Part shown: positions 1 through 58,703 of the stretch, piece by piece
How the letters are laid out: each line of letters begins with the position of its first letter
Position numbering within the stretch: the stretch's first letter is position 1
NCBI RefSeq assembly: GCF_001418325.1
Contig: NZ_LIPN01000258.1
Coordinates: 1-64,000, forward strand
DNA: 64,000 nt
Direction: 5' to 3'
Origin: Streptomyces atriruber
Lineage (GTDB): Bacteria > Actinomycetota > Actinomycetes > Streptomycetales > Streptomycetaceae
The notes under the pieces: generated by a model
What the model was told of the DNA's origin: nothing
The model's input: the letters and a program-made list of their open reading frames with translations, nothing else
Database searches by the model: none
Program-made: the position numbers and the translations under genes

Positions 1-2265
1 CGCTACTGGCTCGCCCCCACCACCCCCGCCGAAGCCCCGGTCGGCACCACCGCACCGGACACGCACGCCGACTTCTGGGCAGCCGTGGAGCGCGAGGACC
101 TGGAAGAACTGGGCCGGACCCTGGAGTGGGACGGCAACCGCACCGAGCTGACGGCAGTGCTGCCCGCCCTGTCGGCATGGCACCGGCGGCACAGCGCCGC
201 GTCCGCGCTGGACTCCTGGCGCTACCGGGAGGAGTGGACGCCGCTGCCCGGCGGAGCCCCCCGGCTCACCGGCACCTGGCTCGTGGCGGTCGCGCCCGAC
301 CAGGTCGGCGGTCCGGTGCACGAGGCGACCGTCGACGGTCTGCGCGAGCACGGGGCCACGGTGGAGACGCTCGTGGCGCCCGACGATCCACGGCAGTGGT
401 CCGACATGCTCGCGGCACGGTCCGCGGCGCAGCCCGCCGCGGACGGCGTGGTCTCACTGCTCGCTCTCGACGAGAGGCCCGTTCCGGGCGAGACGGCGTT
501 CCCGAGCGGACTCCGGCAGACGCTCCTGCTGCTGCAGGGGCTGGCATCGGCCCAGTCCGCCCAGTCCGCCCAGTCGACCCAGTCCGCCCGGCTCGCCCCG
601 CCCGTCTGGTGCGTCACCCAAGGAGCGGTGACCGTCGGCGACCACGACCCGCTGACCAGCCCGGCACAGGCGACGGTATGGGGTCTGGGGCGCGTCGCGG
701 CACAGGAACTCCCCACGCTGTGGGGCGGTTTGGTCGACCTGCCCGCGGACCCGGACCGGCGGACCATGAGCAGGCTGTGCGCGGTCCTGGCGGCCGAGGG
801 CCACGAGGACCAGGTCGCGCTGCGCCCCGCCGGGATCCTCGGACGGCGGATCGTCCGGGCCCCGCTCGGCGACGCGTCCGGCACCGACTGGAAGCCGGGC
901 AGCGGCACGGTACTGATCACCGGCGGCACCGGGGCGCTCGGCAGCCAGGTCGCCCGTCGGCTCGCGGCCCGGGGCGCCGAACACCTCCTGCTCGTCAGCC
1001 GCCGGGGGAGCGCCGCGCCGGGCGCGGCCGACCTGGAGGCCGAGCTCACCCGGGCCGGAGCCAGGGTGACGGTGGCGGCGTGCGACATCGCGGACGACGA
1101 CGCACTCCGGGGTCTCCTGGCATCGGTCCCGGCCGACTGCCCCCTCACCTCGGTGTTCCACACGGCGGCCGTACTGGACGACGCGGCCGTCGAGACCCTG
1201 ACGTCCGGGCAGGTGGCCGACGTACTGCGGGTCAAGGCCGGTGCCGCGTGGCGCCTGCACGAACTCACCCTCGGCCTGGAGCTGTCCGCCTTCGTCCTGT
1301 TCTCCTCCGTGGCCGGCGGCGTCGGCATGGCGGGCCAGGGCAACTACGCTCCGGCCAACGCGTACGTGGACGCGCTGGCCCGGTACCGCCGCTCGCAGGG
1401 GCTGACGGCGACCTCCGTCGCCTGGGGTCCCTGGGCGGAGGGCGGCATGGCCGACGCCGACGCGGTGGCCGGGCTGCGACTGCGGCACGGTCTGCCGCTG
1501 CTGCGTCCGGACGCGGCGGTGCTCGGCCTGGAAGCGGCCCTGGAACACGGCGAGACGAACGTCGTCGTGGCGGACGTCGACTGGGAGAGGTTCACCCACG
1601 CGTACACCGCCGTCAGGCCGAGCAGTCTGTTCGACGGGATCCCCGAGGCCCGGCGGGCGCTCGGCGAACCCGGCGCAGGACCGGGTGGCGGCGGAGCGGG
1701 CGCGGGCGGTGGAGCCGGTGGGAACGCCGGGGGTACGAGCACCACCCTCCGCGACCGGCTGGCGGACGCGGATCCAAGGGACCGCAAGCGGATGCTGCTC
1801 GACGCCGTACGCACCCAGGTGGCCGCCGTCCTCGGACACGACTCGGCCGAAGCCGTCGTCATCGACCGGCAGTTCCTGGACATGGGGCTCGACTCCGTCA
1901 CCGCTGTGGAGCTGCGCAACCGGCTGAACGGCGTCACCGGGCTCCGGCTGCCGGTCACCGTGATCTTCGACCATCCCACGGTGAACGGCCTCGTCGGCCA
2001 CCTCGGGGCGCAGCTGTTCGACGACGGCGCCGACGACGCGGAAACGGCGGGCGCCGCCGACCTGGACCGACTGGACAGCCTGCTGGCGGCGATGGCGGAC
2101 GACGACCCCGCCAGGAACGTGATCGCCGACAGGCTGAGCCGCCTGCTCCGGTCGGCCGTGGGCGCCGACCGGGCCGCGGACGGCTCCGCGAACGGCGAGG
2201 ACCTCGCAGCCGCCACCAACGACGAGCTCTTCGACTTCATCGAGAAGGAATTCGGAATCTCCTGA
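1..2265 (+). CDS. Modular type I polyketide synthase, 3' end (AT end, KR, ACP, C-terminal docking domain)
   Basis: The reading frame is open from the first base, where the RYWL signature that follows an AT domain is visible, so the gene starts upstream of the window. Reading on there is a structural half-KR, a catalytic KR (Rossmann TGGTGALG near nt 920; Lys, the FSS Ser, the GQGNY Tyr and an Asn all present) and an ACP with the GLDS phosphopantetheine serine near nt 1887. The KR has an LDD loop motif, which usually marks B-type reduction (inferred). KR and ACP are joined by an unusual glycine-rich linker (nt ~1670-1735). The C-terminus ends in a [12 protein letters not shown] helix, typical of a PKS docking domain that pairs with the coiled coil starting the next protein. 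No DH or ER lies between AT and KR, so this module leaves a hydroxyl. Confidence 0.93.
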
Positions 2266-2389
2266 CCTCCGGGAGCTCCTGATCACCGAAAGCGCGCCGC
2301 CCAGCCGTGGCACGCCTCCTGATCGACCGACAGACCCACAGTTCGACAGTTCGACCGACCGACTGCTGACTCACCGCATGGAGCAAGTA

Positions 2390-5300
2390 ATGGACGACGT
2401 CGAGAAGCTCCGCCATTTCCTGACGCGGGTCACCGCCGAACTCCAGGAGACGCGAGCACGACTCCGGGTGGTGGAATCGGCCGCCGACGAGCCGGTGGCG
2501 ATCGTCGGGATGAGCTGCCGCTACCCCGGTGGCGTGTCCTCGCCCGAAGGGCTGTGGGAACTGGTGGCGGAGGGCGGCGACGGCATCTCCGGGTTCCCCC
2601 GGGACCGAGGCTGGGACCTGGCCTCGCTCGTCGACCCCGACGGCGAACGGCCGGGCACCTCGTACACGGCCGAGGGCGGGTTCCTGCACGACGCGGGCGA
2701 GTTCGACGCGGGCTTCTTCGGGATCTCGCCGCGTGAGGCCCTCGCGATGGACCCGCAGCAGCGGCTTCTCCTGGAGACCTCCTGGGAGCTCTTCGAGCGG
2801 TCGGGTGTCGACCCGGCGTCGCTGCGGGGCAGCCGCACGGGTGTCTTCGTCGGCGCCAGCTTCCGCGACTACGGAAGCAGGCTGGCCGCGATCCCGGAGG
2901 AGGTCGAGGGCCACGCCATGACCGGCGTCGCCGGAAGCGTCGCGTCGGGTCGTATCGCCTACACCTTCGGCCTGACGGGTCCGGCCCTCACGGTGGACAC
3001 CGCATGCTCGTCGTCCCTGGTCGCGCTGCACCTCGCGGTGCAGTCGCTGCGCCGTGGCGAGTCCTCGCTCGCCCTGGCGGGCGGCGTCGCGGTGATGTCC
3101 ACCCCCGATCTCTTCACCGAGTTCAGCAGGCAGCAGGGCCTCGCCCGTGACGGCCGGTGCAAGGCGTTCGCGGCGGCGGCGGACGGCATGGGTGCCGCCG
3201 AGGGCGTCGGGATGCTGCTGGTGGAGCGGTTGTCGGACGCCCGGCGGAACGGGCACCAGGTCCTTGCGGTGATCCGGGGTTCGGCGGTGAACCAGGACGG
3301 CGCCTCCAGCGGCCTCACCGCGCCGAACGGTCCGGCTCAGGAGCGGGTGATTCGCGACGCGTTGGCGGATGCGGGTGTGGCGGCGTCCGGGGTGGACGTG
3401 GTCGAGGCGCACGGGACCGGTACGGCGCTCGGCGATCCGATCGAGGCGCAGGCGCTGCTGGCGACGTACGGCCAGGAGCGGCCGTCCGACGGCCGTCCGG
3501 TGCTGCTGGGTTCGGTGAAGTCGAACATCGGTCACACGCAGGCCGCGGCGGGTGTGGCCGGTGTCATCAAGATGGTGCTGGCCCTGCGCCACGGTGTCGT
3601 CCCGCGCACCCTGCACGTCGACGAGCCGAGCCCGCATGTGGACTGGTCGTCCGGTGCCGTGGAGCTGGCCACCCGGAACGCGGCGTGGCCGGAGTCGGAC
3701 CGGGCGCGGCGGGCGGCTGTGTCGTCGTTCGGCGTGAGCGGCACGAACGCGCACGTGATCGTCGAGGCGGCTCCGGTCGCCGAGACGGCCCCGGCGGCCG
3801 AGGGCGAGTCCGGTCCCGCGCTGCTGCACTCCGGCGGGAGCGTGGTGCCGTGGCTGGTGTCCGGGCGGTCCGCGGAGGGGTTGCGGGGGCAGGCGGCGCG
3901 GTTGCGTGAGTTCGCCGCCGACAGTGATGCCTCGGATGCGGAGGTCGGGTGGTCGCTGGCGATGCGGCGTGCGGCGCTTGAGCACCGTGCGGTGGTCGTG
4001 GCCGGGGATCGGGAGGAGCTTCTGGCGGGCCTGGACGCGATCGCCTCGGGCGAGCCGACGGGCGACGTGGTCAGCGGCACGGCCCGGAGCGGGGCGTCCG
4101 ACGAAGGCGTGGTGTTCGTCTTCCCGGGCCAGGGCTCCCAGTGGGCCGGTATGGCGGTCGAACTGCTCGATGCGGAACCGGTGTTCGCCGCGTCCATTGA
4201 CCGGTGTGCCGGGGTGTTGGCGCCGTACGTCGACTGGTCTCTGACGGATGTGCTGCGTTCGGCTCCGGGTGCGCCGTCGTTGGAGCGGGTCGATGTGGTG
4301 CAGCCGGTGTTGTGGGCGGTGATGGTGTCGCTGGCCGAGGTGTGGCGGGCGCGCGGCGTGGAGCCCGCGGCCGTGGTGGGGCACTCGCAGGGTGAGATCG
4401 CCGCGGCGTGCGTGGCCGGGGCATTGTCGCTGGAGGACGGCGCACGGCTGGTCGCGTTGCGCAGTGCGGTGATCGCGGAGGAGCTGGCGGGCCGCGGCGG
4501 AATGCTGTCGGTCGCGGCGTCGGCCGTGCGGGTGCGTGAACTTCTGGCGGGCCGGGACGGGGTGTGGGTCGCCACCGTGAACGGGCCCGCGGCGACGGTG
4601 GTGGCCGGTGGCCTGGCAGAGCTGGAGCGGGTGGCCGCCGACGCGGAGGCGGCCGGGCTGCGCACCCGGCTGATCCCGGTGGACTACGCCTCGCACACGC
4701 CTCATGTGGAGGCGGTGCGTGATCGGTTGATGGAGGTGGCGGCGCCGGTCGTGGCCGGTGCGGGCCAGGTGCCGGTGTACTCGACGGTGACGGGCGGGCT
4801 CGTCGCGGGCGAGGAGCTGAACGCCGAGTACTGGTACCGGAATCTGCGGGAGCAGGTGCGGTTCCAGGAGACCGTGGAGGCGCTCGTCGCCGAGGGTCAC
4901 ACGACCTTCGTGGAGGTCAGCGCGCACCCCGTCCTGACCGGTGCGATCGAGGAGGCCGGGCACGCGGCGGACAGGACGCTGACGGTCACCGGAACCCTGC
5001 GCCGCGACCACGGAGGCGACAGTCAGTTCCTCGCCTCCCTCGCCACGCTCTGGGTCCATGGTGTGGCCCCCGACTGGTCCACCGTGCTGCCCGCCCCGAG
5101 CGGCGACCCGGTCGACCTGCCCACCTACGCCTTCCAGCACCAGCACTACTGGCTCACGTCCGACGGCGTCGGCGACATGCGGGGCGCCGGTATGTCGGGC
5201 ACCGGGCATCCGCTGCTCGCGGCCGGGGTGAGCGTGGCCGAGGGCGGCGGTTTCCTGTTCACCGGCAGGCTGTCCACGGGGTCGCATCCGTGGCTCGCCG

Positions 5301-8300
5301 ATCACGCGGTGCTCGGCCGGATCGTGGTGCCGGGTGCCGCCCTCACGGAACTGGCGCTCCGGGCCGGGCAGTACGCGGGCGCGGACCGGCTGGACGAGCT
5401 CGTCCTGCACGCGCCGCTCGTCGTCCCGGCCGACGGCACCGCCGTCGACATACAGGTGGGCGTCGACGCCCCCGACGGCCACGGCATGCGGGCCGTACGC
5501 CTGCACTCCCGGCCGCACGTCCCCGACCTCGACGACGACGTGCACGCCTGGGACTGCCACGCCACGGGCTCCCTGACCGCGCTGCCGCCCCAGGACGAGC
5601 CGACTCCGACGGACGGCGAGCTCGCCGCCGCGGCCCAGTGGCCGCCCGCGGGCGCGGAGCCGGTCGGCCTCGACGGGTTCTACGAGCGTCTGGCCGGGCA
5701 CGGCTACGCCTACGGGCCGGTGTTCCAGGGCGTACGTGCCGTGTGGCGGCGCGGCGACGAGATGTTCGCCGAGGTCTCTCTTCCCGGGTCCGGCGGCGAC
5801 ACCGGCCGGTTCGGCGTGCACCCGGCGCTGCTCGACGCGGCCCTGCAGACCCGCCTCGTGGAGTTGCTCGACGGGTCGGCGGAACGGATGATGCCGTTCT
5901 CGTTCACCGGCGCACGGATCCACGCCACCGGTGCGACCTCCGCACGGGTGCGGGTGTCGCGGACCGGTCCGGACGCCTTCTCGCTGGTGCTGAGCGACCT
6001 CGCGGGCCTGCCGGTGGTCACGATCGAGGAGGTCGCCGTGCGACCGCCTGCCGTCGGCGCGGCGACGGCCGCTCTGCCGCCGGACTCGCTGTTCGAGCTG
6101 AACTGGGTTGCGTACAACGGCGGTTCGCCCGAGCCGGAGAGCGGTCGGCAGGAAGCCGCCGCGGCCCGCATCGCCGTGGTCGGCGAAGGCCTGCCGGGGT
6201 TCGACGACGCACCGGCGTACCCGGACGTCGCCTCGCTCGTCGCCGCCCTCCGCGCCGGCGCGGAGGCGCCGCGTGCGGTGCTGCTGCCGTGCCCGCCGAC
6301 CGGCCACGCATCCCCTTCCGGGCCGGGAGCCGACGTCCCGGGAGCGACCCGGGAGCGGCTGGCCGCGGCGCTGGGCCCGGTGCAGGAGTGGCTGGCCCGT
6401 GCCGAACTGGATTCCGTGAAGCTGGTGTTGGTGACCCGGGGCGCCGTCGCGGTGGCCCCCGGCGAGCAGGTCGACGTGGCGGTGGCCGCCGTACGCGGAC
6501 TGTGGCGGTCGGTGTGCTCGGAGCACCCGGAGCGGTTCGGGCAGCTCGACGTGGATGCCGCGTCGCCCGCGGCGGCGGTGCGGGCCGCGGCGCTGGTCGC
6601 CGGGGAGCCCGAGCTCGCCGTGCGCGCCGGGGCGCTCTCCGTGCCGCGGCTGGGCCGGATCTCGCCGTCGGACCCGAAGGTGCTCGCCGTGCCCGCAGGG
6701 AGCGGCGCATGGGGCCTGGACCTCGGCGCCGGTGACACCCCGGACGATCTGCGGCTGACCCCGCGCCCGGCTGCCGAGGAGCCGCTGGGCCCGGACGAGG
6801 TGCGGGTCGCGGTGCGCGCGACCGGCGTCAACTTCCGTGACGTACTGGTGTCGTTGGGGGTCGTCCCTGACCGGGAAGCGCTCTTCGGCAGCGAGGGCGC
6901 GGGCGTGGTGCTGGAGGTCGGCTCCGGCGTCACCGGCCTCGCGGTGGGCGACCGGGTCATGGGGCTGCTGTCCGGGTCGTACGCGGGACCGGTGGCGGTG
7001 GCCGACAGCCGCCTCGTCGTACCGATGCCGCACGGCTGGTCCTTCGCCCAGGCGGCCGGCGTGCCCGCGGTCTTCCTGACCGCCTCCTACGCGCTGACGG
7101 ACCTCGCCGGCCTCCAGGCCGGTGAATCGCTGCTGGTCCACGCCGCCGCCGGTGGCGTGGGCATGGCGGCCGTGCAGTTGGCGCGGCACCTCGGCGCGGA
7201 GGTCTATGCGACCGCCAGCGAGCCCAAGTGGCCCGTGGTGCGGGGGACCGGTGTCCCGGCCGCCCGCGTGGCGTCGTCGCGCACCCAGGAGTTCGCCGAG
7301 CGGTTCCTCGGGGAGAGCGGGGGCCGGGGCGTCGATGTCGTACTGAACTCCCTGGCCGGTGAGTTCGTGGACGCCTCGCTGAAGCTGCTGCCGCGCGGCG
7401 GCCGGTTCATCGAGATGGGCAAGACGGACATCCGCGACGCCGAGGACGTGGCCGCGCGCCGGCCGGGGGTGCGGTACCGGGCGTTCGACCTGGCCGAGGC
7501 CGGTGCGGAGCGTCTGGGGACCCTGCTCGCCGAGCTCGCGGAGCTCTTCGGGCGGGGCGTGCTGTCCCCGCTGCCGGTCACCGCGTGGGACACGCGTGCG
7601 GCGCCCGAGGCGTTCCGGCAGCTGAGCCAGGCCCGGCTCACGGGGAAGGCGGTGCTGACCACTCCGCCGGACGCCGTCGGGGGCACGGTGCTGATCACCG
7701 GCGGTACCGGTGTCATCGGCTCGGCGGTCGCCCGCCACCTGGTCGCCGACGGCGCGGCCACCGACCTCGTCCTGGCCGGACGCCGGGGCGACGAGGCCCC
7801 CGGAGCCGCGGAACTCGTCGCGGAGCTGACCGCGTCGGGCGCCTCGGTGCGGGTCGTGCGGTGCGACGTGTCCGACCGGGACGCGCTGGGCGCGCTGCTG
7901 GCCGGGCTGCCCGACCTGCGGGGCGTGGTGCACGCCGCGGGCACGGTGGACGACGGCGTGGTCTCCGCGCTGACCCCGGAACGCCTGGACACCGTGCTGC
8001 GGGCCAAGGCGGACGCGGCCTGGCACCTGCACGAGCTGACCCGGGACCGCGACCTGTCGCTCTTCGTCCTGTTCTCCTCCGCCGCCGGTGTGCTCGGCTC
8101 GGCCGGACAGGGCAACTACGCCGCGGCCAACGCGTTCCTGGACGCGCTCGCCCGGCACCGGCGCACCCAGGGGCTGCCCGCCCACTCGCTCGCGTGGGGC
8201 CTGTGGGCCGAACGCAGCGCGCTCACCGGTGACTTGACGGCCACCGACCTCGACCGGATGCGCCGCATCGGCGTGCGGCCGCTCACCGCGGACCAGGGCC

Positions 8301-11300
8301 TCGCCCTCTTCGACGCGGCGATACGCGCGCCGCGCGCCCTGAGCGTGCCCGCCGCCCTGGACGTGGCGGCCCTGCGCAGGCAGGAGGACCCCGCCGCGGT
8401 GCTGCGCGGCCTGGTGCGTACGCAGGTCAGGCGCTCGGCGGTGAACGCGGCCGTCGGCGGCGGACTGCGGGAGCGCCTCACCGGTCTTTCCCCGGCGGAC
8501 CGCGGCCGGACGCTGACCGAACTCGTGCGCGCCCAGGCCGCCGTGGTGCTCGGACACGAGCACGCCGACACCGTGGCCGCCGACCGGGCCTTCAAGGACC
8601 TGGGCTTCGACTCGCTGACGGCGGTCGAGCTGCGGAACCGCCTCAGCACCGCGACCGGACTGCGGCTCCCGGTGACCCTCGTCTTCGACCGTCCGACGCC
8701 GACCGCACTGGCGGCGGAGCTGCTCGCCCGGCTCGTGCCGGACGACGGCACGGACGGTGGCCGGGCCGCCGTCGCGGCCGCCGACGGCGCGCACGACGCG
8801 GTCGACGACGAACCGATCGCCGTCGTCGGGATGAGCTGCCGGTTCCCCGGCGGCGTGCGCTCGCCCGAGGACCTGTGGCAACTGCTGACCGACGGGCGGG
8901 ACGCCATGGGCGACTATCCCGACGACCGCGGCTGGCACGTCGAACTGGGCGACACCGCCGATCCGTCGGCCGACCGCTTCGCCCAGGTCGGCGGGTTCCT
9001 GCACGACATGGCCGACTTCGACCCGGAGTTCTTCGGGATCTCCCCGCGCGAGGCGCTCGCCACCGATCCGCAGCAGCGGCTGCTGCTGGAGTCCACCTGG
9101 GAGGCGTTCGAACGCGCCGGAATCGATCCCACCACGCTGCGTTCCACGCCGACCGGCGTCTTCGCCGGACTGATCTACAACGACTACGCCTCGCGCTTCC
9201 CCGACCTGCCCAGCGGGTTCGAGGGATACCTCGGCAACGGCAGCGCCCCCAGCGTGGCGTCCGGCCGGATCGCGTACACCCTCGGCCTGGAGGGACCGGC
9301 GATCACGGTGGACACCGCCTGCTCGTCGTCGCTCGTCGCACTGCACCTGGCCGCGCAGGCCCTGCGGCAGGGCGACTGCACGCTCGCGGTCGCCGGTGGG
9401 GCGACCGCGATGTCGACGCCGCGGCCCATGGTCGAGTTCAGCCGGGTCGGCGGCCTGGCCCCCGACGGGCGGTCCAAGGCGTTCTCCGCCGACGCCGACG
9501 GCATGGGATTCGCCGAGGGCGTCGGCATGCTGGTGGTGGAGCGGCTGTCCGACGCCCGGCGCAACGGGCACCGGGTGCTCGCGGTGCTCCGCGGCTCCGC
9601 GCTCAACCAGGACGGCGCGTCCAACGGCCTCACCGCGCCCAGCGGTCCCGCCCAGCAGCGGGTGATCACGCAGGCGCTGGCGAACGCGGGTGTGGCGGCG
9701 TCCGAGGTGGACGTGGTCGAGGCGCACGGCACCGGCACCCCGCTGGGCGATCCGATCGAGGCGCAGGCCCTCCAGGCGACGTACGGGCAGCACCGCCCCG
9801 CCGACCGTCCTGTGCTGCTCGGCTCGGTGAAGTCCAACATCGGTCACACGCAGGCCGCGGCGGGCGTGGCCGGTGTCATCAAGATGGTGCTGGCCCTGCG
9901 CCACGGTGTCGTGCCGCGCACCCTGCACGTCGAGCGGCCCGCCGAGCACATCGACTGGACGGCCGGGGCGGTGCGCCTGGCCGAGAAGGACGTGCCGTGG
10001 ACGCCGTCCGGCCGCCCGCGGCGCGGCGCCGTGTCGTCGTTCGGCATCAGCGGCACCAACGCACACGTGATCATCGAGGAGGCCCCGGCCGAACTGCCCG
10101 AGGAGCCTGCGGCGTCCGGCCGCCCGGTGCCCTGGGTGATCTCGGCGAAGAACGCCGACAGCCTGCGCGAGCAGGCTCGCCGCCTGCACGAGCGGGTGAG
10201 CGGGGACCCCGTCCTGGAACCGGCCGACGTCGCCCGCTCGCTGCTCTCCACCCGGGCGCTGTTCGACCACCGCGCCGTGGTGGTCGGACGGACCCGGGAG
10301 GAACTGCTGACCAGGCTGGCGGCGGTGAGCGGCGGCGAACCCGCCGCGGGCGTGGCCCGGGGCGTGTCCGCCGACCGGTCCGGGGGGACGGTGTTCGTCT
10401 TCCCGGGCCAGGGTTCGCAGTGGGCCGGTATGGCGGTCGAACTGCTCGATGCGGAACCGGTGTTCGCCGCGTCCGTCGACCGGTGTGGCGAGGCGTTGGC
10501 GCCGTACGTCGACTGGTCTCTGACGGATGTGCTGCGTTCGGCTCCGGGGGCGCCGTCGTTGGAGCGGGTCGATGTGGTGCAGCCGGTGTTGTGGGCGGTG
10601 ATGGTGTCGCTGGCCGAGGTGTGGCGGGCGCGCGGCGTGGTGCCTTCGGCCGCGGTGGGGCATTCGCAAGGTGAGATTGCTGCGGCGTGTGTGGCGGGTG
10701 TGTTGTCGCTGGAGGATGGTGCGCGGATCGTGGCTCTGCGGAGTCGGTTGATCGGCGGTGAGCTGTCGGGGCTGGGCGGCATGGTGTCGGTCGCTCGGCC
10801 GGTGGGTGAGGTGGTGGAGCTGCTGGTCCCGTGGGGCGAGCGGATCTCTGTCGCGGCGGTGAACGGGCCGGGTGCCACGGTGGTGGCCGGGGACGCGGCC
10901 GCGCTGGACGAGCTGATGGCGGCGTGCGAGCGCGAGGGGGTGCAGGCGCGCCGGGTCCCGGTGGACTACGCCTCGCACACGCCCCAGGTCGAGCGCCTGC
11001 GCACCGAACTGCTCGACCTGGCCGCGCCGGTCGTGCCCGGCCCCGGCGACGTACCGATGTACTCCGCGGTGACCGGAGAACTGCTGGACGGCAGCACGGC
11101 CGGAGCCGAGTACTGGTACCGCAACCTGCGGGAGCCCGTACGGTTCGACTCCGCGACGCGCGCCCTGGCCGCCGCGGGCCACCACGTGTTCGTCGAGGTC
11201 AGCCCGCACCCGGTGCTCACCAACGCGATCGAGCACACGCTTGAGAGCGACACGGACCGGGGCACGGACACCGTCGTCGCCGGGACGCTGCGGCGCGGTG

Positions 11301-13711
11301 AGGACGGGCAGGAGCGGATGCTCGCGGCCCTCGCGGACGTGTTCGTGAGCGGTACCGCGGTGGACTGGACGGACACCTTCCGGGGCGGCCGCGCGGTGGA
11401 CCTGCCGACCTACGCCTTCCGCAGGCAGCGGTACTGGCTGGACGCGCCCGAGCGCTCCGGCGACGCGAGCGGCGTCGGACTGACGGTGCCGGACCACCCG
11501 CTGCTGGCGGGCGCGGTCACCCCGGTCGGCAGCGACACGCTCGTCTGTACGGGCAGGCTGTCCCGTACGACCCACCCCTGGCTCGCCGACCACGAGGTGC
11601 TCGGCACGGTGATACTGCCCGGCAGCGTGTTCGTCGACTGGGCGCTGTTCGCGGGCGGCGAGTCCGGCTGCCCGCGGATCGTCGAACTCACCGTTGAGGA
11701 GCCGCTGTTCCTGGACGCCTCCGCCGCGGTGCACGTCCAGGTCGAGGTGGGGCGGCCCGACGGGACCGGGCAGCGCGTCCTGACCGTCCACTCCCGTGTC
11801 GAGACCACCGGTGCGGACACGGCGTCCGGCTGGACACGGCACGCCACGGCGACCGTGGCCCCCGCCGCGGCGGACACCGGCGCCAACGGCAACGGCAACG
11901 CCGATGCCGACGCCGTCGCCTTCGCGGAACTCTCGGGAGCCTGGCCGCCGCCGGACGCGTCGGCCGTTCGACTCCCGGATTTCTACGAAGGACTGGCCGA
12001 CCGCGGATTCGCGTACGGGCCCGCCTTCCGCGGCCTGCGTGCCGCCTGGCGGCGCGGTGCGGAGATCTTCGCCGAGGTGTCCCTGAGCGAAGAGGCCACC
12101 GCCTCCGCGGACGGCTTCGCCCTGCACCCCGCCCTCCTGGACGCGTCCCTGCACGCGGCGGGGGCGGCCGCGAGCGACGGCGACGGGGCGGAAGGGGGCG
12201 CGGGACAGGTCCGGATACCGTTCGCCTGGTCCGGGATCCGACTGCACTCGGCGCCCACCACCACCCTCCGCGTGCGGCTCTCCGCCACCGGCGGCGAGGC
12301 CATCGGCGTCCACCTCGCGGGCAGCATCGGTCAACCGGTCGCGTCCGTCGCGGAGTTGAGCCTGCGCGCCGTCGACCGCGCGCGGTTCGAGGGGGCCACC
12401 GCGGCCCGGCCCGTACCGGACGAGCGGCCCCGTCACGCGCCCGTGGACAGCGCCGCCGCCCGCCTCGTGCGGGACGCCGCGCCGGAGGAGCGCCCCGAAC
12501 TGCTGGCGCGCCTCGTCAGGGACCAACTCACCGCCGTACTGCGCCTGGACGCCACGGACATCGGCGGGGACGTCGCGTTCCTGGACCTCGGGATGGACTC
12601 GATCGGGGGCATCACCCTGCGGGACCGGCTCGGCACCCTGCTCGACCTGCGGCTCCCCGCGACGACGACGTTCGAGTACTCGACCACGTCCCTGCTCGCA
12701 GGACGCCTCGCCGAACTCCTGGGCGGCCGCACCGAGCCCGGGCGGAGCACGGCGACGGAACCGGCACCCGCGGAGGCGGAAGCAGCCCCCGCAGAGGTGG
12801 CAACGGAACCGGCGACAGAACCTGCGGCGGAAACAGAACCCGCCGCCACCACGCCCTCCGAACCCCTCGACAGCATCACGGCCCTCTACCACCAGGCCTA
12901 CGCCATGGGCAGGACCGGATCGTCCGGCATGGACCTCATCCAGGCCGCCGGATGGCTCCGCCCGTCCTTCACCATCGACAGCGCCGCCGATCAGGTCCTG
13001 CCACCGGTCCGGATGGCCACCGGTGACGGCAGCCGCGCCAAGCTGGTGTGCCTGCCCGCCATCACGGCCACCGCCGGGCCGATCCAGTACGCCATGATGG
13101 CGCAGCACTTCGAGGGCAAGAGGGACGTCCTGTCGCTGGTCAACCCCGGCTACGCCGAGGGCGAGCTGGTGGCGGACACCTTCGACGCGCTGGTCGAGAC
13201 GCACCTCGTGCAGCTGCGCGAGACCGCGGGGAGCGAGCCGTTCGTCCTGCTCGGGCACTCCATGGGCGGTCTCATCGCCCACACCCTGGCGATGCGGGCC
13301 GAGGAGGCGGGTCTTGCGCCCGACGCGGTGGTCCTGCTGGACACGTTCCAGGCGACCCACCAGTTCGCGGAGAAGACGACCCTCGCGATGAACGAGGGCC
13401 TCGACTCCCGTGAACGGCTACTCGGCCCCCTCGCCCTGAACGGCGTGAAGCTGACGGCCATGGGCCGCTACAACGCCCTCTTCATGCAGCAGTGCGTGCT
13501 GCGCCCGATCAAGGCACCGACGCTCTTCCTCAGCGCCGCCGACCCCATGCCCCACCAGGACGAGGGCTTCGAGGACGAGGGCTGGCGCGCGGTCTGGCCC
13601 CTGCCGCACACCGCTCAGGAGACCCCCGGAGACCACTTCACGATCATGGAGCACAACCTGCCGCTGACCACCGGCGCCATCGAGAGCTGGCTCACCGACC
13701 GTGGCCTGTGA
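2390..13711 (+). CDS. Terminal bimodular type I polyketide synthase: KS-AT-DH-ER-KR-ACP / KS-AT-DH-ACP-TE
   Basis: About 3773 residues. It begins with a coiled-coil docking segment (DVEKLRHFL). Module 1: KS (~36-460, Cys ~206 in TACSSS), AT (~573-870, GHSQG and YASH, methylmalonyl type), DH (~935-1220, HxxxGxxxxP at His ~972, later Asp in DAALQ), ER (~1434-1745), KR (~1764-1950, catalytic Tyr in GQGNY, VDD loop) and ACP (~2037-2110, GFDSL). Module 2: KS (~2142-2565, Cys ~2311), AT (~2666-2970, YASH), DH (~3030-3330, His ~3068, DASLH), ACP (~3370-3445, GMDSI), an Ala/Glu/Pro/Thr-rich linker, and a TE with GHSMGG (Ser ~3624) and a late GDH. Module 2 has a DH but no KR. I chose the ATG at 2390 over the one at 2378 because GGAG lies six bases before it. 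The protein extends the chain by two methylmalonyl units and releases it. Product not identified. Confidence 0.95.
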
Positions 13712-13807: not shown

Positions 13808-15016
13808 ATGACCATGCCCGCCTTCGAAAAGGTCGCCCCGCCCGGCATCGACGCCGTGTCGGACCCGTACTCCGTCTACGCCCACCTGCGCGAGCAGAGA
13901 CCCGTTCACCGCGTCCCGACCCACGACGCAGGCGACGTCTGGCTGATCGTCGGACACGCCGAGGCCCGCGCCGCCCTCACGGACCCGCGCCTGCGCAACG
14001 ACATCCGCCACTCGTCCTCCTGGCAGGACGACGGCGGCAACGCCATCGGCCTGAACATGCTGCAGACCGACCCGCCGCACCACACCCGGCTGCGGCGCCT
14101 CGTGGCCAGGGAGTTCACCGCGCGCCGCATCGAGGCGCTGCGCCCGCGCATCGAGCAGCTCACGAACGAGCTCCTCGACGCCATGCTGCCGCTGGGCAAG
14201 GCCGACCTCGTCGAGGCGTTCGCGATGCCGCTGCCGATGGCGGTCATCTGCGAACTCCTCGGCGTGCCCGCGGCCGACAGGGACCAGTTCCGCATCTGGT
14301 CCGGAGAGATCGTCTTCCCCAGCAGCGCCGAGGCCGCGGGCGCCGCGGTCCACGGCATGACCGGCTATCTGGCCCAACTCATCGAGGGCAAGCGGAACTC
14401 GGCCGACGAGGACCTGCTCGGCGCCCTCGTGCGCACCATGGACGAGGACGGCGACAGCCTCTCGCCGGAAGAGATGCTCGGCATGGCCTTCCTGCTGCTC
14501 GTCGCGGGGCACGAGACCACCGTCAACCTCATCTCGAACGGCACGTGCGCGCTGCTGCGCCACCCCGAGCAGCTCGCCGCCCTGCGGGCCGACCCCGCGC
14601 TGATCGACGACGCCGTCGAGGAGATGCTCCGCTACGACGGCCCGTCGCACTCCACCGCGCACCGCTTCGCCGCCGAGGACGTGGAGATCGCGGGCACGGT
14701 GATCCCCGCCGGTGACCCCGTCCTCGTCCTCCTCGCGGCGGCGAACCGGGACCCGGACCGCTTCCCCGACCCCGACCGCTTCGACATCACCCGCGACGCC
14801 CGCGGCCACCTCGGCTTCAGCCACGGCGTCCACCACTGCCTGGGCGCGCCGCTCGCCCGGCTGGAAGCCACGATCGCCCTGCGCGCGCTGCTGGAGCGCT
14901 GCCCGGACCTGGCCCTCGACACGGATCCGGCCGCCCTGGCCTGGCGGCCCAGCCTGATGCGCGGCCTCCTGCACCTGCCGGTCCGCACAAGGAAGGACGA
15001 AGGGAACGCCGTATGA
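13808..15016 (+). CDS. Cytochrome P450 monooxygenase (first of three)
   Basis: 402-residue soluble bacterial class I P450. Visible motifs are the I-helix oxygen-activation motif AGHETT, the K-helix ExxR (EMLR) and the haem loop FSHGVHHCLG with the Cys ligand near residue 344. An ATG with GAGAGG upstream supports the start. It lies 96 bases after the thioesterase-ending PKS gene and overlaps the next P450 by ATGA, so it is probably cotranscribed and translationally coupled. It closely resembles the third P450 (16308-17498) across much of its length, including a shared WQDDGGN block, which suggests gene duplication within the cluster. The likely role is oxidation of the released polyketide; position and substrate cannot be read from sequence. 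It would need ferredoxin and reductase partners, and none lies in the window. Confidence 0.93.
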   Translation: MTMPAFEKVAPPGIDAVSDPYSVYAHLREQRPVHRVPTHDAGDVWLIVGHAEARAALTDPRLRNDIRHSSSWQDDGGNAIGLNMLQTDPPHHTRLRRLVAREFTARRIEALRPRIEQLTNELLDAMLPLGKADLVEAFAMPLPMAVICELLGVPAADRDQFRIWSGEIVFPSSAEAAGAAVHGMTGYLAQLIEGKRNSADEDLLGALVRTMDEDGDSLSPEEMLGMAFLLLVAGHETTVNLISNGTCALLRHPEQLAALRADPALIDDAVEEMLRYDGPSHSTAHRFAAEDVEIAGTVIPAGDPVLVLLAAANRDPDRFPDPDRFDITRDARGHLGFSHGVHHCLGAPLARLEATIALRALLERCPDLALDTDPAALAWRPSLMRGLLHLPVRTRKDEGNAV

Positions 15017-17583: not shown

Positions 17584-20103
17584 CTACTCGCTCTTGATCG
17601 CCATCAGCGGGTTCAGCCGCGCCGCGCTGCGGGCCGGCCACACCGCGGCCATGACACCGACCACGGCCGCGATGACCAGGAAGATCACGATCCGGCCGAC
17701 CGGGATCTCCATGGAGTACGTGGCGACCTTCTCGGCGATGCTGCCGCCCACGGCCCAGCCCATGAAGAGGCCGAGACCGATGCCGAGCACCGCGCCGAAC
17801 AGCGAGATCACGACCGACTCCAGGCGCACCATCTGCTTGACCTTCGCACGGTCCAGACCGATGGCCCGCAGCATGCCGATCTCGTGCTTGCGCTCGAAGA
17901 CCGACATCGCGAGGGTGTTGATGACGCCGAGCACCGCGATCAGGACGGCCATGCCGAGGAGGCCGTACAGCATGTTCAGGAGCATGTTGATGCCGCCCGC
18001 CACCGCGTTGCTGACGTCGTCCTTGTCCTGGACGGTGATGGCCGGGTTGTCGCCGAGGGCCTTGATGATGGCGTCCTCGGCCCGGTCCGACGTGCCGCCC
18101 TTCATCTTCACCAGGACCTGCTTGTCGACCAGCTTGGAGAGGTGCGGGTCGACGACGGACGTCGGCGCGAAGAGGCCGTTGAGCATCTCGTTGCCCTCGT
18201 AGACGCCCGCGACCTTCAGCTGGACGGTCTTGTCGTCGGCGTCGAACTTCAGCGGGAAGGTGTCGCCGGCCTTGAGGCCCTTGTCCTTTGCCGTGTCCGC
18301 GTCGACCAGCGCGGTGCCGGCCTTCAGGCCGTCGATCGAGCCGCTGGTGAAGCGGGGGCTGACCAGCTTGCCGAACGTCTTCGGGTCGACGCCGTTGACG
18401 ACGGAGTAGCTGCCGTCCACCTCGCCGTAGGCGGTGCGCAGCGGGGTGCTCGCCTCGACGTCGGGAACCTTGTCCAGCTTCTCGCGGACCTCGGGGGTCA
18501 GCGCCTCGAAGTTCGCCATGGAGACGCTGTAGTCGGCCTTCATGGAGTCCGCGGCCATCTTGTTGATGGCGCTGCCCATGGACACCGCGATGACCGTCAT
18601 CGCGGTGATGAGGGTGAGGCCGATCATCAGGGCCGAGGCGGTGGAGGCGGTGCGGCGCGGGTTGCGCACCGAGTTGAGGCGCGACAGCTTGCCGGTGACG
18701 CCGAACGGCTTCAGGAGCGGCGCGGAGGCGGCGATGAAGGGCCGGGAGAGCAGCGGGGTGAGGACGATGACGCCGACGAGGATGGTGGCCGCGCCACCCG
18801 CCATCACGTAGTTGTCGTCCATGAACATCATGACCGCGCCGAGCGCCACGATGAGCGAGCCGAGGGTGTTGCGGACGACCAGGCCGCGCGTGGTGGGCGT
18901 CGCGTGGACGCTGTTCATCGCGGCGACCGGCGGGATCTTCGCGGCGCGGCGGCCCGGCAGCCAGGCGGCCAGCATGGTCACGACCACGCCGATCAGGAGC
19001 GCCGCCACGATCGTCGTCGGGGCGATGACGAGGGGACCGTCCGGCAGCGAGGCGCCGCCGGCGTTCATCAGGGACTCCAGGCCGACGGAGACACCGAGGC
19101 CGAGCCCGAATCCGGCCACGGCGGCGACCAGGCCGACGAGGAACGCTTCGATGAGCACGGAGCGCGTCACCTGGCGGCGCGAGGCGCCGACGGCGCGCAT
19201 GAGCGCGAGCTCCTTGGTGCGCTGGGCGACCAGCATGGTGAAGGTGTTGGCGATGATGAAGATGCCGACGAAGAGCGCGATCCCGGCGAAGATCAGCAGG
19301 ACCTGGCTCATGGAGCTGGTCTGCTGTTCGATCATCCGGTCCTGGTCGGCCGAGAGCTGACCGCCCGTGACGGCGTCCGTGTCCTTCGGCAGGATCTTCT
19401 CGACCGAGCTCTTCAGCGCCGACTCGGAGGTGCCCGCGGCGGCCTTGACGTCGATCTCGTCGTACTCGGTCTTGTTCAGCGCCTTCAGCGCGGTCTTGTT
19501 GTCGAGGACGACCAGGCTGCCGCCCGCGACGACGCTGCCGTCGTCGGTGTCGAAGACGCCGCTGACCTTGGCGGTGCGCACGGGGCCGTCGGTGGAGTAG
19601 CGGACGGTGTCGCCCACCTCGAAGCCGGTGCGCTCGGCGGTGCGGGAGTCCAGCGCGATGTCGGCGGCGGACTTCGGGGCGCTGCCCTTCACGAAGTCGT
19701 ACCGGGGGTCCTTGCCGTCCTTGGCCGGGTAGAAGTTGGTGCCGGTGGTGCCCCACTCGCCGCCGACCAGCTTCCCCTTCTTGTCGGCGAGCGCGGTGAA
19801 CCCGTTGACGGAGCCGATGGCGGACTCGGCGCCGGGCAGGGACTCGGCCTTCTTCAGGAGGCCGTCGGTGAGGCGGGCGGGCTCCTTGCGTTCACCGTCC
19901 TCGGTGGAGGAGCCGCCGTCGGACCGGATGGCGACGGAGACGTGGTCGAAGCTCTTCGCCGACTTGTTCTTGTAGGCGTTGCCGAAGGTGTCGGTGAAGA
20001 CCAGGGTGCCGGAGACGAAGGCGACGCCGAGCATGACGGCGAGCACGGTCATCAGCAGTCTGGCCTTGTGCGCGAGCACGTTGCGCAGGGCGGTACGGAA
20101 CAT
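17584..20103 (-). CDS. ABC transporter permease, FtsX/MacB-like
   Basis: 839-residue membrane protein with an N-terminal membrane segment (LMTVLAVMLGVAFVSGTLV), a large extracytoplasmic domain (about residues 45-255), a cluster of FtsX-type membrane segments in the middle, a second extracytoplasmic domain, and three C-terminal membrane segments. The two FtsX halves follow the usual plan of actinobacterial permeases of this class. It lies downstream of its ATPase (20260-21030) in the same direction. Such pairs are often linked to antibiotic or envelope-stress responses, or to lipid and lipoprotein handling, but the substrate cannot be told here. It faces the PKS cluster convergently, so it is more likely a core gene than the cluster's exporter. 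Confidence 0.93.
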   Translation of the reverse strand: MFRTALRNVLAHKARLLMTVLAVMLGVAFVSGTLVFTDTFGNAYKNKSAKSFDHVSVAIRSDGGSSTEDGERKEPARLTDGLLKKAESLPGAESAIGSVNGFTALADKKGKLVGGEWGTTGTNFYPAKDGKDPRYDFVKGSAPKSAADIALDSRTAERTGFEVGDTVRYSTDGPVRTAKVSGVFDTDDGSVVAGGSLVVLDNKTALKALNKTEYDEIDVKAAAGTSESALKSSVEKILPKDTDAVTGGQLSADQDRMIEQQTSSMSQVLLIFAGIALFVGIFIIANTFTMLVAQRTKELALMRAVGASRRQVTRSVLIEAFLVGLVAAVAGFGLGLGVSVGLESLMNAGGASLPDGPLVIAPTTIVAALLIGVVVTMLAAWLPGRRAAKIPPVAAMNSVHATPTTRGLVVRNTLGSLIVALGAVMMFMDDNYVMAGGAATILVGVIVLTPLLSRPFIAASAPLLKPFGVTGKLSRLNSVRNPRRTASTASALMIGLTLITAMTVIAVSMGSAINKMAADSMKADYSVSMANFEALTPEVREKLDKVPDVEASTPLRTAYGEVDGSYSVVNGVDPKTFGKLVSPRFTSGSIDGLKAGTALVDADTAKDKGLKAGDTFPLKFDADDKTVQLKVAGVYEGNEMLNGLFAPTSVVDPHLSKLVDKQVLVKMKGGTSDRAEDAIIKALGDNPAITVQDKDDVSNAVAGGINMLLNMLYGLLGMAVLIAVLGVINTLAMSVFERKHEIGMLRAIGLDRAKVKQMVRLESVVISLFGAVLGIGLGLFMGWAVGGSIAEKVATYSMEIPVGRIVIFLVIAAVVGVMAAVWPARSAARLNPLMAIKSE

Positions 20104-20156
20104 GGGTGTGAGTCCTGGGTCAAGTGAGTGGGGGGAGGGCCCCGCAGGGGCCTCCC

Positions 20157-20185
20157 AGGGGCGCGGGGAACTGCGCGACGAGCCA
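20157..20185 (+). repeat. Dispersed hairpin repeat, family A copy 1
   Basis: Copy of the element with core GCGCGGGGAACTGCGCGA, in the gap between the ABC ATPase and permease genes. The GCGC blocks around GGGGAACT can fold back. Seven copies occur in the window. Confidence 0.8.
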
Positions 20186-20259
20186 CGGACGGCCCGCAGT
20201 CCCGACGAAAGCCCGGCCTCGACGGCGGTAGGGAGGAACCGCCCGAGGCCAAGCGGCCA

Positions 20260-21030
<771 letters not shown>

Positions 21031-37889: not shown

Positions 37890-38651
37890 ATGTCGTACGA
37901 GACGCTTCAGGACCGCACCGCCCTCGTCACCGGCGCGGCCAGCGGCATCGGAGAGGCCACGGCCCGGCTGCTCGCCGCCCGCGGGGCGCGGGTCGTCCTC
38001 CTCGCCCGCCGCACGGACCGGCTCGAAGAGCTGGCCGCCAAGATCGGGGCGGACGGCGGCCGGGCGCTCGCCGTCACCGCCGACGTCACCGACCAGGCGT
38101 CGGTGGACGCCGCCGCCGAGCGGGTCCGCGCCGCCTACGGGCGCGTGGACCTGGTGGTGAACTCGGCGGGTGTGATGCTGCCCAACCCGGTCACCGAGGC
38201 CCGCACCGACGAGTGGCAGCGGATGCTGGACACGAACGTGGCGGGGGCGCTGCGCATCATCGGCGCCTTCACGCCGGACCTGATCGAGGCGGCCGCGGCG
38301 GGCGGGGCGGCGGACCTGGTCAACATCTCCTCGATCGGCGCGCACCTCGCGTTCACCAACTACGCGGTGTACGGGGCGACGAAGGCCGCGCTGACACACC
38401 TGTCGGAGTCCCTGCGCACCGAGCTCGGCCCGCGTGACGTGCGCGTCACCAACGTCGAGCCGGGCTTCACGGACACCGAGCTGCGCGGGCACATCGACAA
38501 CGGTGAGCTGAGCGGGCAGCTGGAAGGCATGTTCGGCGCGGTCGGCTCACTGGAATCGGAGGACGTCGCGGACCTGATCGCCTACGCGACGAGCCGTCCG
38601 CGCCACGTCAACCTGCGCCAGCTCATCGTGCTGCCCACGCGCCAGGCGTGA
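37890..38651 (+). CDS. Short-chain dehydrogenase/reductase
   Basis: 253 residues, the classical SDR length. NAD(P)-binding TGAASGIGEA, NSAGV, catalytic Ser in NISSIG and YGATK (Tyr-x-x-x-Lys) are all present. An Arg after the second strand (LLARRTDRLE) suggests NADP(H) preference (inference). Substrate unknown. It is divergent from an MmyB-type regulator, a pairing that points to induction by a small hydrophobic carbonyl compound or acyl ligand. Confidence 0.93.
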   Translation: MSYETLQDRTALVTGAASGIGEATARLLAARGARVVLLARRTDRLEELAAKIGADGGRALAVTADVTDQASVDAAAERVRAAYGRVDLVVNSAGVMLPNPVTEARTDEWQRMLDTNVAGALRIIGAFTPDLIEAAAAGGAADLVNISSIGAHLAFTNYAVYGATKAALTHLSESLRTELGPRDVRVTNVEPGFTDTELRGHIDNGELSGQLEGMFGAVGSLESEDVADLIAYATSRPRHVNLRQLIVLPTRQA

Positions 38652-57914: not shown

Positions 57915-58703
57915 CTAGGCCGCCCACATTCCGCCGTCGACCCGAAGCACCGTGCCGGTGACGTACGAGGCCCGGTCGCTGAGGAGCCACGCGGCGGCCT
58001 GGGCGATCTCCTCCGGATCGGCGGCACGCCCCAGCGGGGTCTGCGAGTTGAGGTGGTCGATGGTGCCGGGGGAGTTCGCGTCCCACTCGCGGAGCATCTC
58101 GGTCAGCGTGGTGCCGGGCGCGACGGCGTTGACGCGGATGTTCTCGGGCCCGTACGTGACGGCGGCGGACGCGGTGAGGCTGTTGACGGCGCGCTTCGTC
58201 GCCGCGTACGCGGGCAGGGCGGGGTTGGCCACGAGGCTGCCGACGCTGGAGGTGTTGACGATGGCGCCGCGCCGCGACGTGGCGCGGATGGCGGCGACCT
58301 CGGCGTTCATGGCGAGCCAGGTCCCCTTGAGGTTGACGCCGGTCACGTGGTCGAAGTCGTCCTCCGACAGCTCGTCCATGGGGCCGGGCGGCTGCCCGGC
58401 CGCCCCGTTGTTGAAGGCGACGTCGAGCCGCCCGTACAACTGGACGGCCCGCTCGACGGCGCCGCGTACGCTGTCGCCGTCACCGAGGTCGCACACGACG
58501 TGATCGGCGACGCCCCCGTCGTCCCGTATCCCCTCGACCACGCCTGCCAACTGCGCCTCGGTCCGGGAGGCGAGAAGAACCCGGGCCCCTTCCCGGGCGA
58601 AGAGCCGGGCGGCGGCGGCACCGATGCCGCGCCCGGCGCCGGTGACGAGGGCGACCTTGCCGGAGAGCAGACCAGCACCGTACGAATGCGTCATGTCGTT
58701 CAT
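57915..58703 (-). CDS. Short-chain dehydrogenase/reductase (second SDR/MmyB pair)
   Basis: 262 residues from ATG 58703. TGAGRGIGAA, NNGAAG, NTSSVGS and YAATK give nucleotide binding, NNAG-type and catalytic Ser-Tyr-Lys positions. An Arg after beta-2 (LLASRTEAQ) suggests NADPH. Divergent from the MmyB-type regulator at 58791, with an 87-base shared promoter region. Substrate unknown. It resembles the 37890 SDR only at family level, so the two pairs need not be recent duplicates. Confidence 0.92.
   Translation of the reverse strand: MNDMTHSYGAGLLSGKVALVTGAGRGIGAAAARLFAREGARVLLASRTEAQLAGVVEGIRDDGGVADHVVCDLGDGDSVRGAVERAVQLYGRLDVAFNNGAAGQPPGPMDELSEDDFDHVTGVNLKGTWLAMNAEVAAIRATSRRGAIVNTSSVGSLVANPALPAYAATKRAVNSLTASAAVTYGPENIRVNAVAPGTTLTEMLREWDANSPGTIDHLNSQTPLGRAADPEEIAQAAAWLLSDRASYVTGTVLRVDGGMWAA

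Follow-up and report, generated by a model that had tools for sequence, protein, structure and literature searches.

Several described systems approach a polyketide synthase (PKS) that ends in an unreduced module carrying a dehydratase (DH). Pikromycin-type lines end in an unreduced module, and unreduced modules with an inverted methyl group carry defective ketoreductases (KRs), which have been proposed to epimerise the α-methyl by a mechanism called unclear (both PMC3962154). PlyTUVW, for the polyoxypeptin side chain, consists of a loader with a Gln-type ketosynthase (KSQ), a hydroxyl-forming module, a module with DH, enoylreductase (ER) and KR, and a non-reducing last module (PMC3943440). 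Among domains with the DH fold, AmbDH3 of ambruticin dehydrates and then closes a pyran, and in pyran synthase domains the catalytic acid is replaced by His or Asn (both PMC4979870). The product-template (PT) domain of AviM, reported as less than 20% identical to earlier structures, has a DH fold with a His-Asp dyad; in a protein ordered KS-AT-PT-ACP, it joins C2 to C7 of an unreduced chain (PMC9135731). In the NFAT-133 system, DH7 of NftD1 has an intact His beside a dead KR7 and is dispensable (DH7 H964Y; PMC10265476). Here we analyse a 64,000-nucleotide stretch of Streptomyces atriruber DNA (contig NZ_LIPN01000258.1 of assembly GCF_001418325.1, positions 1 to 64,000, forward strand; hereafter the window), in which a PKS protein ends in a module, module 4, that contains a DH (DH4) and no KR.

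The PKS open reading frame encodes 3777 residues and ends KS-AT-DH-ACP-thioesterase (TE), the order that a sequence-only reading of the window had given. Pfam detected two stretches each of KS, acyltransferase (AT), PKS_DH_N, PS-DH and PP-binding. The sole KR (residues 1769-1945) lies in the first module of the protein, and the sole TE occupies residues 3555-3771. Module 4 runs from its KS (from residue 2150) through AT (2672-2994) and DH (about 3040-3336) to a linker (about 3337-3367) and an acyl carrier protein (ACP4) with its LGMDS motif at 3404. DH4 has an HxxxGxxxxP-type motif from 3072, GFAYGPAF at 3210 and DASLH at 3255, and its catalytic dyad, His3072 and Asp3255, is intact; the sequence-only reading had recognised the first and last of these motifs, placing the His at about 3068. 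The features of the module are as follows.

2378..13711, plus strand: PKS gene 2, encoding module 3 (KS-AT-DH-ER-KR-ACP) and module 4 (KS-AT-DH-ACP-TE), from the open reading frame and Pfam
10391..11359, plus strand: AT4, with GHSQG/YASH, methylmalonyl-type (Pfam; meaning of YASH from PMC3943440)
11495..12385, plus strand: DH4, without a KR; His3072 codon 11591-11593, Asp3255 codon 12140-12142 (Pfam PKS_DH_N/PS-DH, motifs and model)
12386..12478, plus strand: DH-ACP linker of about 31 residues, without a KR (motifs and model)
12479..12697, plus strand: ACP4, divergent by its 14 best non-ortholog matches
13013..13708, plus strand: terminal thioesterase with GHSMGG at residue 3626 (Pfam Thioesterase; best PDB match FluC TE 9cfj, E 6e-49)

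The absence of a KR between AT and ACP, noted in the sequence-only reading together with a proposal to look for a hidden one by structure prediction, withstood that prediction. An AlphaFold2 model of the DH-linker-ACP segment (440 residues, 52-sequence alignment) had a mean pLDDT of 81, with most DH blocks above 90, and its DH fold ran directly into the ACP helices. A hidden KR in the DH-ACP interval is rejected by Pfam, by the size of the linker and by this model, which leaves no space for one. Module 4 thus lacks the KR between DH and ACP of a canonical reducing module, and it is not a keto-forming terminal module in the strict sense (a closing TE and nothing for β-processing between AT and ACP), a DH being present. 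DH4 itself has the double-hotdog fold and the PKS_DH_N/PS-DH matches of a modular type I PKS DH. A Foldseek search gave 151 matches at E<=0.001, of which the 50 listed were DHs or DH-containing structures, led by the DH of fluvirucin module 1 (6obv) and that of the rifamycin terminal module (4ln9) at 40-41% identity.

The arrangement is conserved. A search for related loci returned 67, and seven of them match the whole DH-ACP-TE query with 59-72% identity in the best segment: those of S. violaceusniger, S. antioxidans, S. endocoffeicus, S. iranensis, S. samsunensis, S. phaeofaciens and S. rugosispiralis. Searches of same-genus genomes added two with the same module end, G099 and G168, which may overlap with the seven named species. 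An assembly or sequencing artefact is rejected, as the arrangement recurs in other genomes and in G099 is part of a line encoded in two open frames (3674 and 3812 codons). Module 4 is a real KR-less terminal module, KS-AT-DH-ACP-TE, and closes a small PKS that is itself conserved.

Conservation extends to the active site. All nine copies compared (window, L009-L015 and L086) retain the His and Asp, YGP with the F of YGPxF, and PFxW, along with the final P of HxxxGxxxxP and the H of DxxxQ/H; the motifs vary in the G of HxxxG (D in L014) and in the L of LPFxW (I or M). DH4 of G168 retains HAVLGGVVLP and DTALH, which brings the dyad to ten copies, and it is kept even though the DH-ACP segments of the orthologs are only 58-71% identical to that of the window. 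In a quick tree of 129 DHs, from which short or interrupted sequences, including the KR-less DH of L056, were left out and in which 52 of 126 inner branches were weak, the nine DH4s formed one group (Shimodaira-Hasegawa-like approximate likelihood ratio, SH-aLRT, 100). A common origin of KR-less DHs was not supported by this tree: those of L020, L087 and L095 fell outside the nine-row group (4 label changes).

The sequence-only reading was also right that a DH without a KR is uncommon in a terminal module. The 67 loci contain 149 plus-strand DHs, six of them cut by the locus end. Of the remaining 143, nine are followed by a KS or TE without an intervening KR: seven orthologs of module 4 and two DHs of internal DH-ACP-KS modules, so that without the orthologs the count is two of 136 DHs with complete context. 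These figures are rough, the set being biased by having been fetched with pieces of this protein, and domains were listed for the plus strand alone, which probably explains the lack of domains in several loci from the genome search described next. One DH comparison set comprised eight orthologs and 44 of 100 de-duplicated other DHs. Among 120 other same-genus genomes (20 best candidates scored per genome, strong matches at E<=1e-40), an uninterrupted DH-to-ACP match occurred in two, giving one ortholog and two internal modules; resting on strong matches, this count is rough as well. A TE search of 343 genomes, that of the window included (7 candidates scored in each listed genome), gave matches at E<=1e-65 in four: besides the window genome itself, these were G099, G168 and a further genome, G033. 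All these genome searches scored a limited number of candidates per genome (20, 7 or up to 150), and weaker matches may escape them. KR-less DH modules are rare but not unique, and within the sets examined the terminal DH-ACP-TE end is found only in this family. The literature index used, outside whose coverage most subscription journals lie, returned no bacterial modular KS-AT-DH-ACP-TE terminal module in titles or the starts of abstracts; the listed papers using the string KS-AT-DH-ACP were mostly fungal by title, the rest being a web-server paper and a yeast-host review. Four internal KR-less DH-ACP-KS modules were seen with both His and Asp kept (L095:1099-2292, L087:1111-2271, L020 1199-2002 and L056 6590-7234).

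What DH4 might act on depends on the rest of the assembly line. The window opens at the very start of contig C177, which begins inside PKS gene 1; the upstream features of the window that matter here are the following.

1..2265, plus strand: 3' part of PKS gene 1, the end of module 2 (dimerisation element, KR2, ACP2, C-terminus; Pfam PKS_DE, KR 302-480, PP-binding)
5207..6052, plus strand: DH3, a conventional DH used as internal control (His-motif stretch at 976, DAALQ at 1153)
6728..8347, plus strand: ER3 and KR3 of module 3 (KR3 7670-8347), the nearest KR to module 4 (Pfam)

The best match in the window genome to the KSQ loading module of a relative lies on contig C160 (20,000 of 27,229 bases examined), which reads KSQ-AT-ACP, KS-AT-ACP and then a KS and the start of an AT at the contig end. 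C160 and C177 share no exact overlap, and the piece lost between them falls within module 2. In S. violaceusniger NBRC 13459 the entire line stands on one chromosome in the order KSQ-AT-ACP / KS-AT-ACP / KS-AT-KR-ACP / KS-AT-DH-ER-KR-ACP / KS-AT-DH-ACP-TE, and the domain order in G168 and G099 matches it (ACP4 of G099 was seen in a separate domain listing, L086). The KSQ-type GQSS motif occurs in S. violaceusniger and in the window genome, and GHSQG/YASH in all five ATs of S. violaceusniger and all five of G168. YASH has been read as a sign of methylmalonyl-CoA, and a Gln-type KS as a decarboxylating loader (PMC3943440). By collinearity, we infer that the line builds a C15 3,9-diketo-7-hydroxy acid from five methylmalonyl units. 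A ketone is predicted at C9 because module 1 has no reductive domain and at C3 because module 4 has no KR; KR2, which carries an LDD motif, would account for a hydroxyl at C7, and module 3 for a saturated C4-C5 region.

This logic resembles that of PlyTUVW and of ArtOPQR (aurantimycin), which share methylmalonyl KSQ loading, a hydroxyl, a DH-ER-KR module and a non-reducing end (PMC3943440, PMC5031334). Their last module, in contrast, is KS-AT-ACP without a DH or TE and feeds a nonribosomal peptide synthetase (NRPS), and their extender units differ. A polyoxypeptin-type cluster was accordingly rejected: despite similar carbon logic, the last module is a different one, and no NRPS was found next to this line when chosen window genes were scanned with Pfam and NCBIfam. 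Pikromycin-type terminal modules resemble module 4 in being unreduced (PMC3962154), in their methylmalonyl-type AT and in a related TE. The TE of PikAIV is related in sequence to the terminal TE here at E ~1e-35. The difference lies in the full DH with intact motifs between AT and ACP of module 4, the order of the pikromycin terminal module being KS-AT-ACP-TE.

A closer comparison is offered by G033, whose last module reads KS-AT-ACP-TE, with neither DH nor KR, and has the features of a keto-forming terminal module. It is 59% identical to module 4 over 658 aligned columns from KS into AT and 53% identical over the 442 columns that start in the pre-ACP linker and extend to the TE, the TE alone reaching 61% identity to that of the window; its post-AT linker (YWLDAPE) is followed by the pre-ACP linker with no DH in between. 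In a comparison of three genomes, the linker and ACP of this module came closest to ACP4 once the orthologs were set aside (E 1.8e-23, next 1.2e-17). Since both modules lack a KR, the simplest history would be a terminal module already without one that acquired or shed the DH as a single block. On these alignments, the DH appears as an optional block on a keto-forming terminal module, and structural need becomes a weaker reason for keeping DH4 because the G033 module exists without a DH. The AT of the G033 module (L108:937-9918) lacks the GHSxG serine and is shortened, so that it would need an AT from elsewhere. The G033 PKS is followed by a gene for a carbamoyltransferase and by an NRPS gene on the opposite strand.

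We estimated selection on DH4 from the ratio of nonsynonymous to synonymous substitution (dN/dS) in four pairs, with DH3 as control. For DH4 the values were 0.46, 0.47, 0.53 and 0.46, with 95% bootstrap intervals of 0.32-0.63, 0.36-0.61, 0.39-0.72 and 0.30-0.75, all excluding 1. DH3 gave 0.39, 0.35, 0.35 and 0.46; its intervals overlap those of DH4 in each pair, and the share of bootstraps with DH4 above DH3 was 0.78, 0.91, 0.96 and 0.52. An earlier count, which excludes L013 with its missing upstream modules, gave 0.50 for DH4 vs 0.37 for DH3 in far pairs, 0.41 vs 0.47 in near pairs and 0.44 vs 0.39 for window-L014. Near pairs within the S. violaceusniger group (L009-L013, L015, G099 and G168) weigh less owing to broken frames and lost P450s. 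KS4, AT4, ER3, KR3 and TE4 ranged from 0.11 to 0.35 (KR3 0.21-0.33), and ACP4 from 0.16 to 0.59, its interval passing 1 in two pairs. Purifying selection acts on DH4, overall somewhat less strongly than on DH3, a pattern that fits a mildly relaxed but used domain as well as an idle retained one. ACP4 is also unusually divergent in sequence beside the ordinary ACP3 of the same protein (42-50% identity to its 14 best non-ortholog matches in the fetched loci, vs 63-70% for ACP3) and is perhaps tuned to the DH and TE.

Our tentative preference is that DH4 works on a cyclised, unreduced chain, most simply by dehydrating a C3 hemiketal. The C7 hydroxyl of the predicted chain would be suitably spaced from the C3 ketone to add to it and form a six-membered cyclic hemiketal, which would bear a hydroxyl on the β-carbon and formally be a β-hydroxyacyl-ACP. 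Ring closure would in this way supply the β-hydroxyl in place of a KR, and the DH would have a substrate without one. The His3072/Asp3255 dyad would then remove the C2 proton, the C3 hydroxyl would leave, and the resulting tetrahydropyran-2-ylidene (enol-ether) thioester would be released by the TE; in a looser version, DH4 would promote ring closure on the unreduced chain. We favour the hemiketal because it would already carry the β-hydroxyl that a DH removes, and we place it ahead of an idle domain because the G033 sister module does without a DH and because of the selection on DH4. The more specific claim, that DH4 needs no KR in that it dehydrates, or helps to close, the C7-OH/C3 hemiketal to give an exocyclic enol ether before TE release, we consider somewhat unlikely. 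PlyTUVW provides a precedent for pairing a ketone with a δ-hydroxyl (PMC3943440), and the PT of AviM one for a DH fold at work on an unreduced chain (PMC9135731). AmbDH3 offers a partial parallel as a DH fold of cis-AT type with a ring-forming role and 39-40% Foldseek identity to DH4, but it acts on a 3-hydroxy thioester, which module 4 has no KR to make. The replacement of the catalytic acid seen in trans-AT pyran synthases is absent from DH4, which has Asp in all nine copies.

Several observations weigh against this proposal. DH4 is an ordinary modular DH by sequence and fold and not specially near AmbDH3, whose structures (5o15/5o16) ranked 11th to 15th in Foldseek, below 6obv and 4ln9, so that by our own definition it does not class with AmbDH3-type domains. 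Its constraint is weaker than that of DH3 in three of the four pairs and equal in one. Intact motifs are also widespread: in a control set partly fetched with a peptide holding the catalytic His, 121 of 122 uncut DHs followed by a KR or ER keep His and Asp (in the whole set, cut DHs included, five were flagged as lacking one of them, of which four are cut at the start of their stretch and one, L063, is real), as do all four internal KR-less DHs (L020, L056, L087 and L095). Because the control DHs keep them too, intact motifs alone do not show that DH4 is used, and motif retention as stand-alone proof is rejected. NFAT-133 supplies a DH with an intact His beside a dead KR that was dispensable (PMC10265476). 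Finally, the S. violaceusniger group shows signs of decay. The gene for cytochrome P450 'a', described below, is absent or a fragment in five of its eight members: the matches in L010, L012 and L013 cover 393 of 402 residues, G099 and G168 have a fragment, and none turned up downstream of the PKS in L009, L011 or L015. In addition, two of the three lines checked have interrupted reading frames, S. violaceusniger in modules 2 and 3 and G168 in module 2, which may be sequencing error.

The S. samsunensis line (L013:7271-12412) is a single open frame of 1713 codons with the order KSQ-AT-DH-ACP-TE, and nothing closer than 65% to the ER-KR region of module 3 was found in that genome (150 of 294 candidates scored). 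From the sequence, modules 1-3 would have been either deleted, between similar modules, or lost by assembly collapse.

Next in rank, and almost as probable as the hemiketal, is that DH4 is idle: the β-carbon would stay a ketone, the chain would leave as a β-keto acid, lactone or hemiketal, and the fold would be kept for packing or by descent. An idle DH had been among the options of the sequence-only reading. As a neutral relic it is rejected by a dN/dS below 1, and the dyad in ten copies also counts against that; an idle but retained domain is still compatible with the data. NftD1 DH7 is a precedent, having an intact His in a ketone-forming module and having been mutated without effect; unlike module 4, that module retains a dead KR, and its DH has been demonstrated to be dispensable (PMC10265476). 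The weaker constraint relative to DH3 and the retention of His and Asp in the four internal KR-less DHs point the same way, and on account of this motif control we set idling and the hemiketal closer together. Against idling stand a dN/dS clearly below 1 in every pair, and below DH3 in the near pairs of the earlier count, the persistence of the dyad at the low identity of the DH-ACP segments, and the G033 sister, from which the DH seems not to be structurally required.

Less likely, though a serious competitor, is a borrowed KR: KR3, as the simplest candidate, would reduce the ketone on ACP4, and DH4 would then dehydrate it like any DH to a 2-methyl-2-enoyl chain. KR3 belongs to the same polypeptide and is well conserved, and the motifs and closest structures of DH4 are those of ordinary DHs. 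A KR3 reaching ACP4 is, however, not normal module behaviour. The sequence-only reading had also considered a trans-acting KR, and in its clustered form this found no support: queried with the SDR (short-chain dehydrogenase/reductase) of the window and with KR3 at E<=1e-3, 120 kb around the S. violaceusniger PKS and the L010-L015 stretches gave matches to PKS KRs only. In the window, the SDR (37890-38651) and an SDR-like match (58095-58667) both lie more than 24 kb downstream of the PKS. A clustered trans-KR thus appears not to be conserved in the DNA examined, with KR3 or a distant gene as possible sources.

That DH4 instead epimerises the C2 methyl of the β-keto thioester, or acts like a product-template domain as an aldol cyclase joining C4-C9 or C8-C3, is quite improbable: the C3 and C9 ketones predicted for the line, the epimerising role proposed for defective KRs (PMC3962154) and the PT of AviM, likewise a DH fold with a His-Asp dyad between AT and ACP and active on an unreduced chain (PMC9135731), would allow it, but AviM performs the aldol chemistry of an orsellinic acid synthase, the best fold matches of DH4 are modular DHs at 35-41% with no PT among the 50 listed of 151, and the dehydratase-type YGP and Asp are kept.

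Downstream of the PKS, the window holds the following genes.

13808..15016, plus strand: cytochrome P450 'a', sharing 82-84% identity with the P450 that follows the PKS in L010, L012 and L013
15013..16272, plus strand: cytochrome P450 'b', sharing 74% identity with the P450 that follows the PKS in S. phaeofaciens L014
16308..17498, plus strand: cytochrome P450 'c' (domain scan)
17584..21030, minus strand: ABC transporter permease and ATPase, candidate exporter (domain scan)

Since P450 'a' matches the gene in L010, L012 and L013 and P450 'b' that in S. phaeofaciens, tailoring differs between relatives. The ABC permease was not found near the PKS of the relatives in the DNA examined (E<=1e-20). 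On C160, upstream of the PKS (L084:8763-13657), lie a polyprenyl diphosphate synthase, a frame with a DDMD motif, which we take to be terpene-synthase-like, and two related P450s, likely a terpene cluster; the polyprenyl diphosphate synthase and P450 were not found in the DNA of relatives examined.

Module 4 is a real, conserved and unusual variant within known PKS types, not a new system. Polyketide structure prediction reads the domains of a module as a recipe, and a KR-less DH is easily written off as inactive. With one loading and four extension modules and its own TE, this line is small enough to make the choice between an idle DH and other chemistry directly testable. If DH4 is idle, it would be a clean example of a domain that is maintained but unused; if it works on an unreduced chain, the rules by which terminal modules are read would need an extra case.

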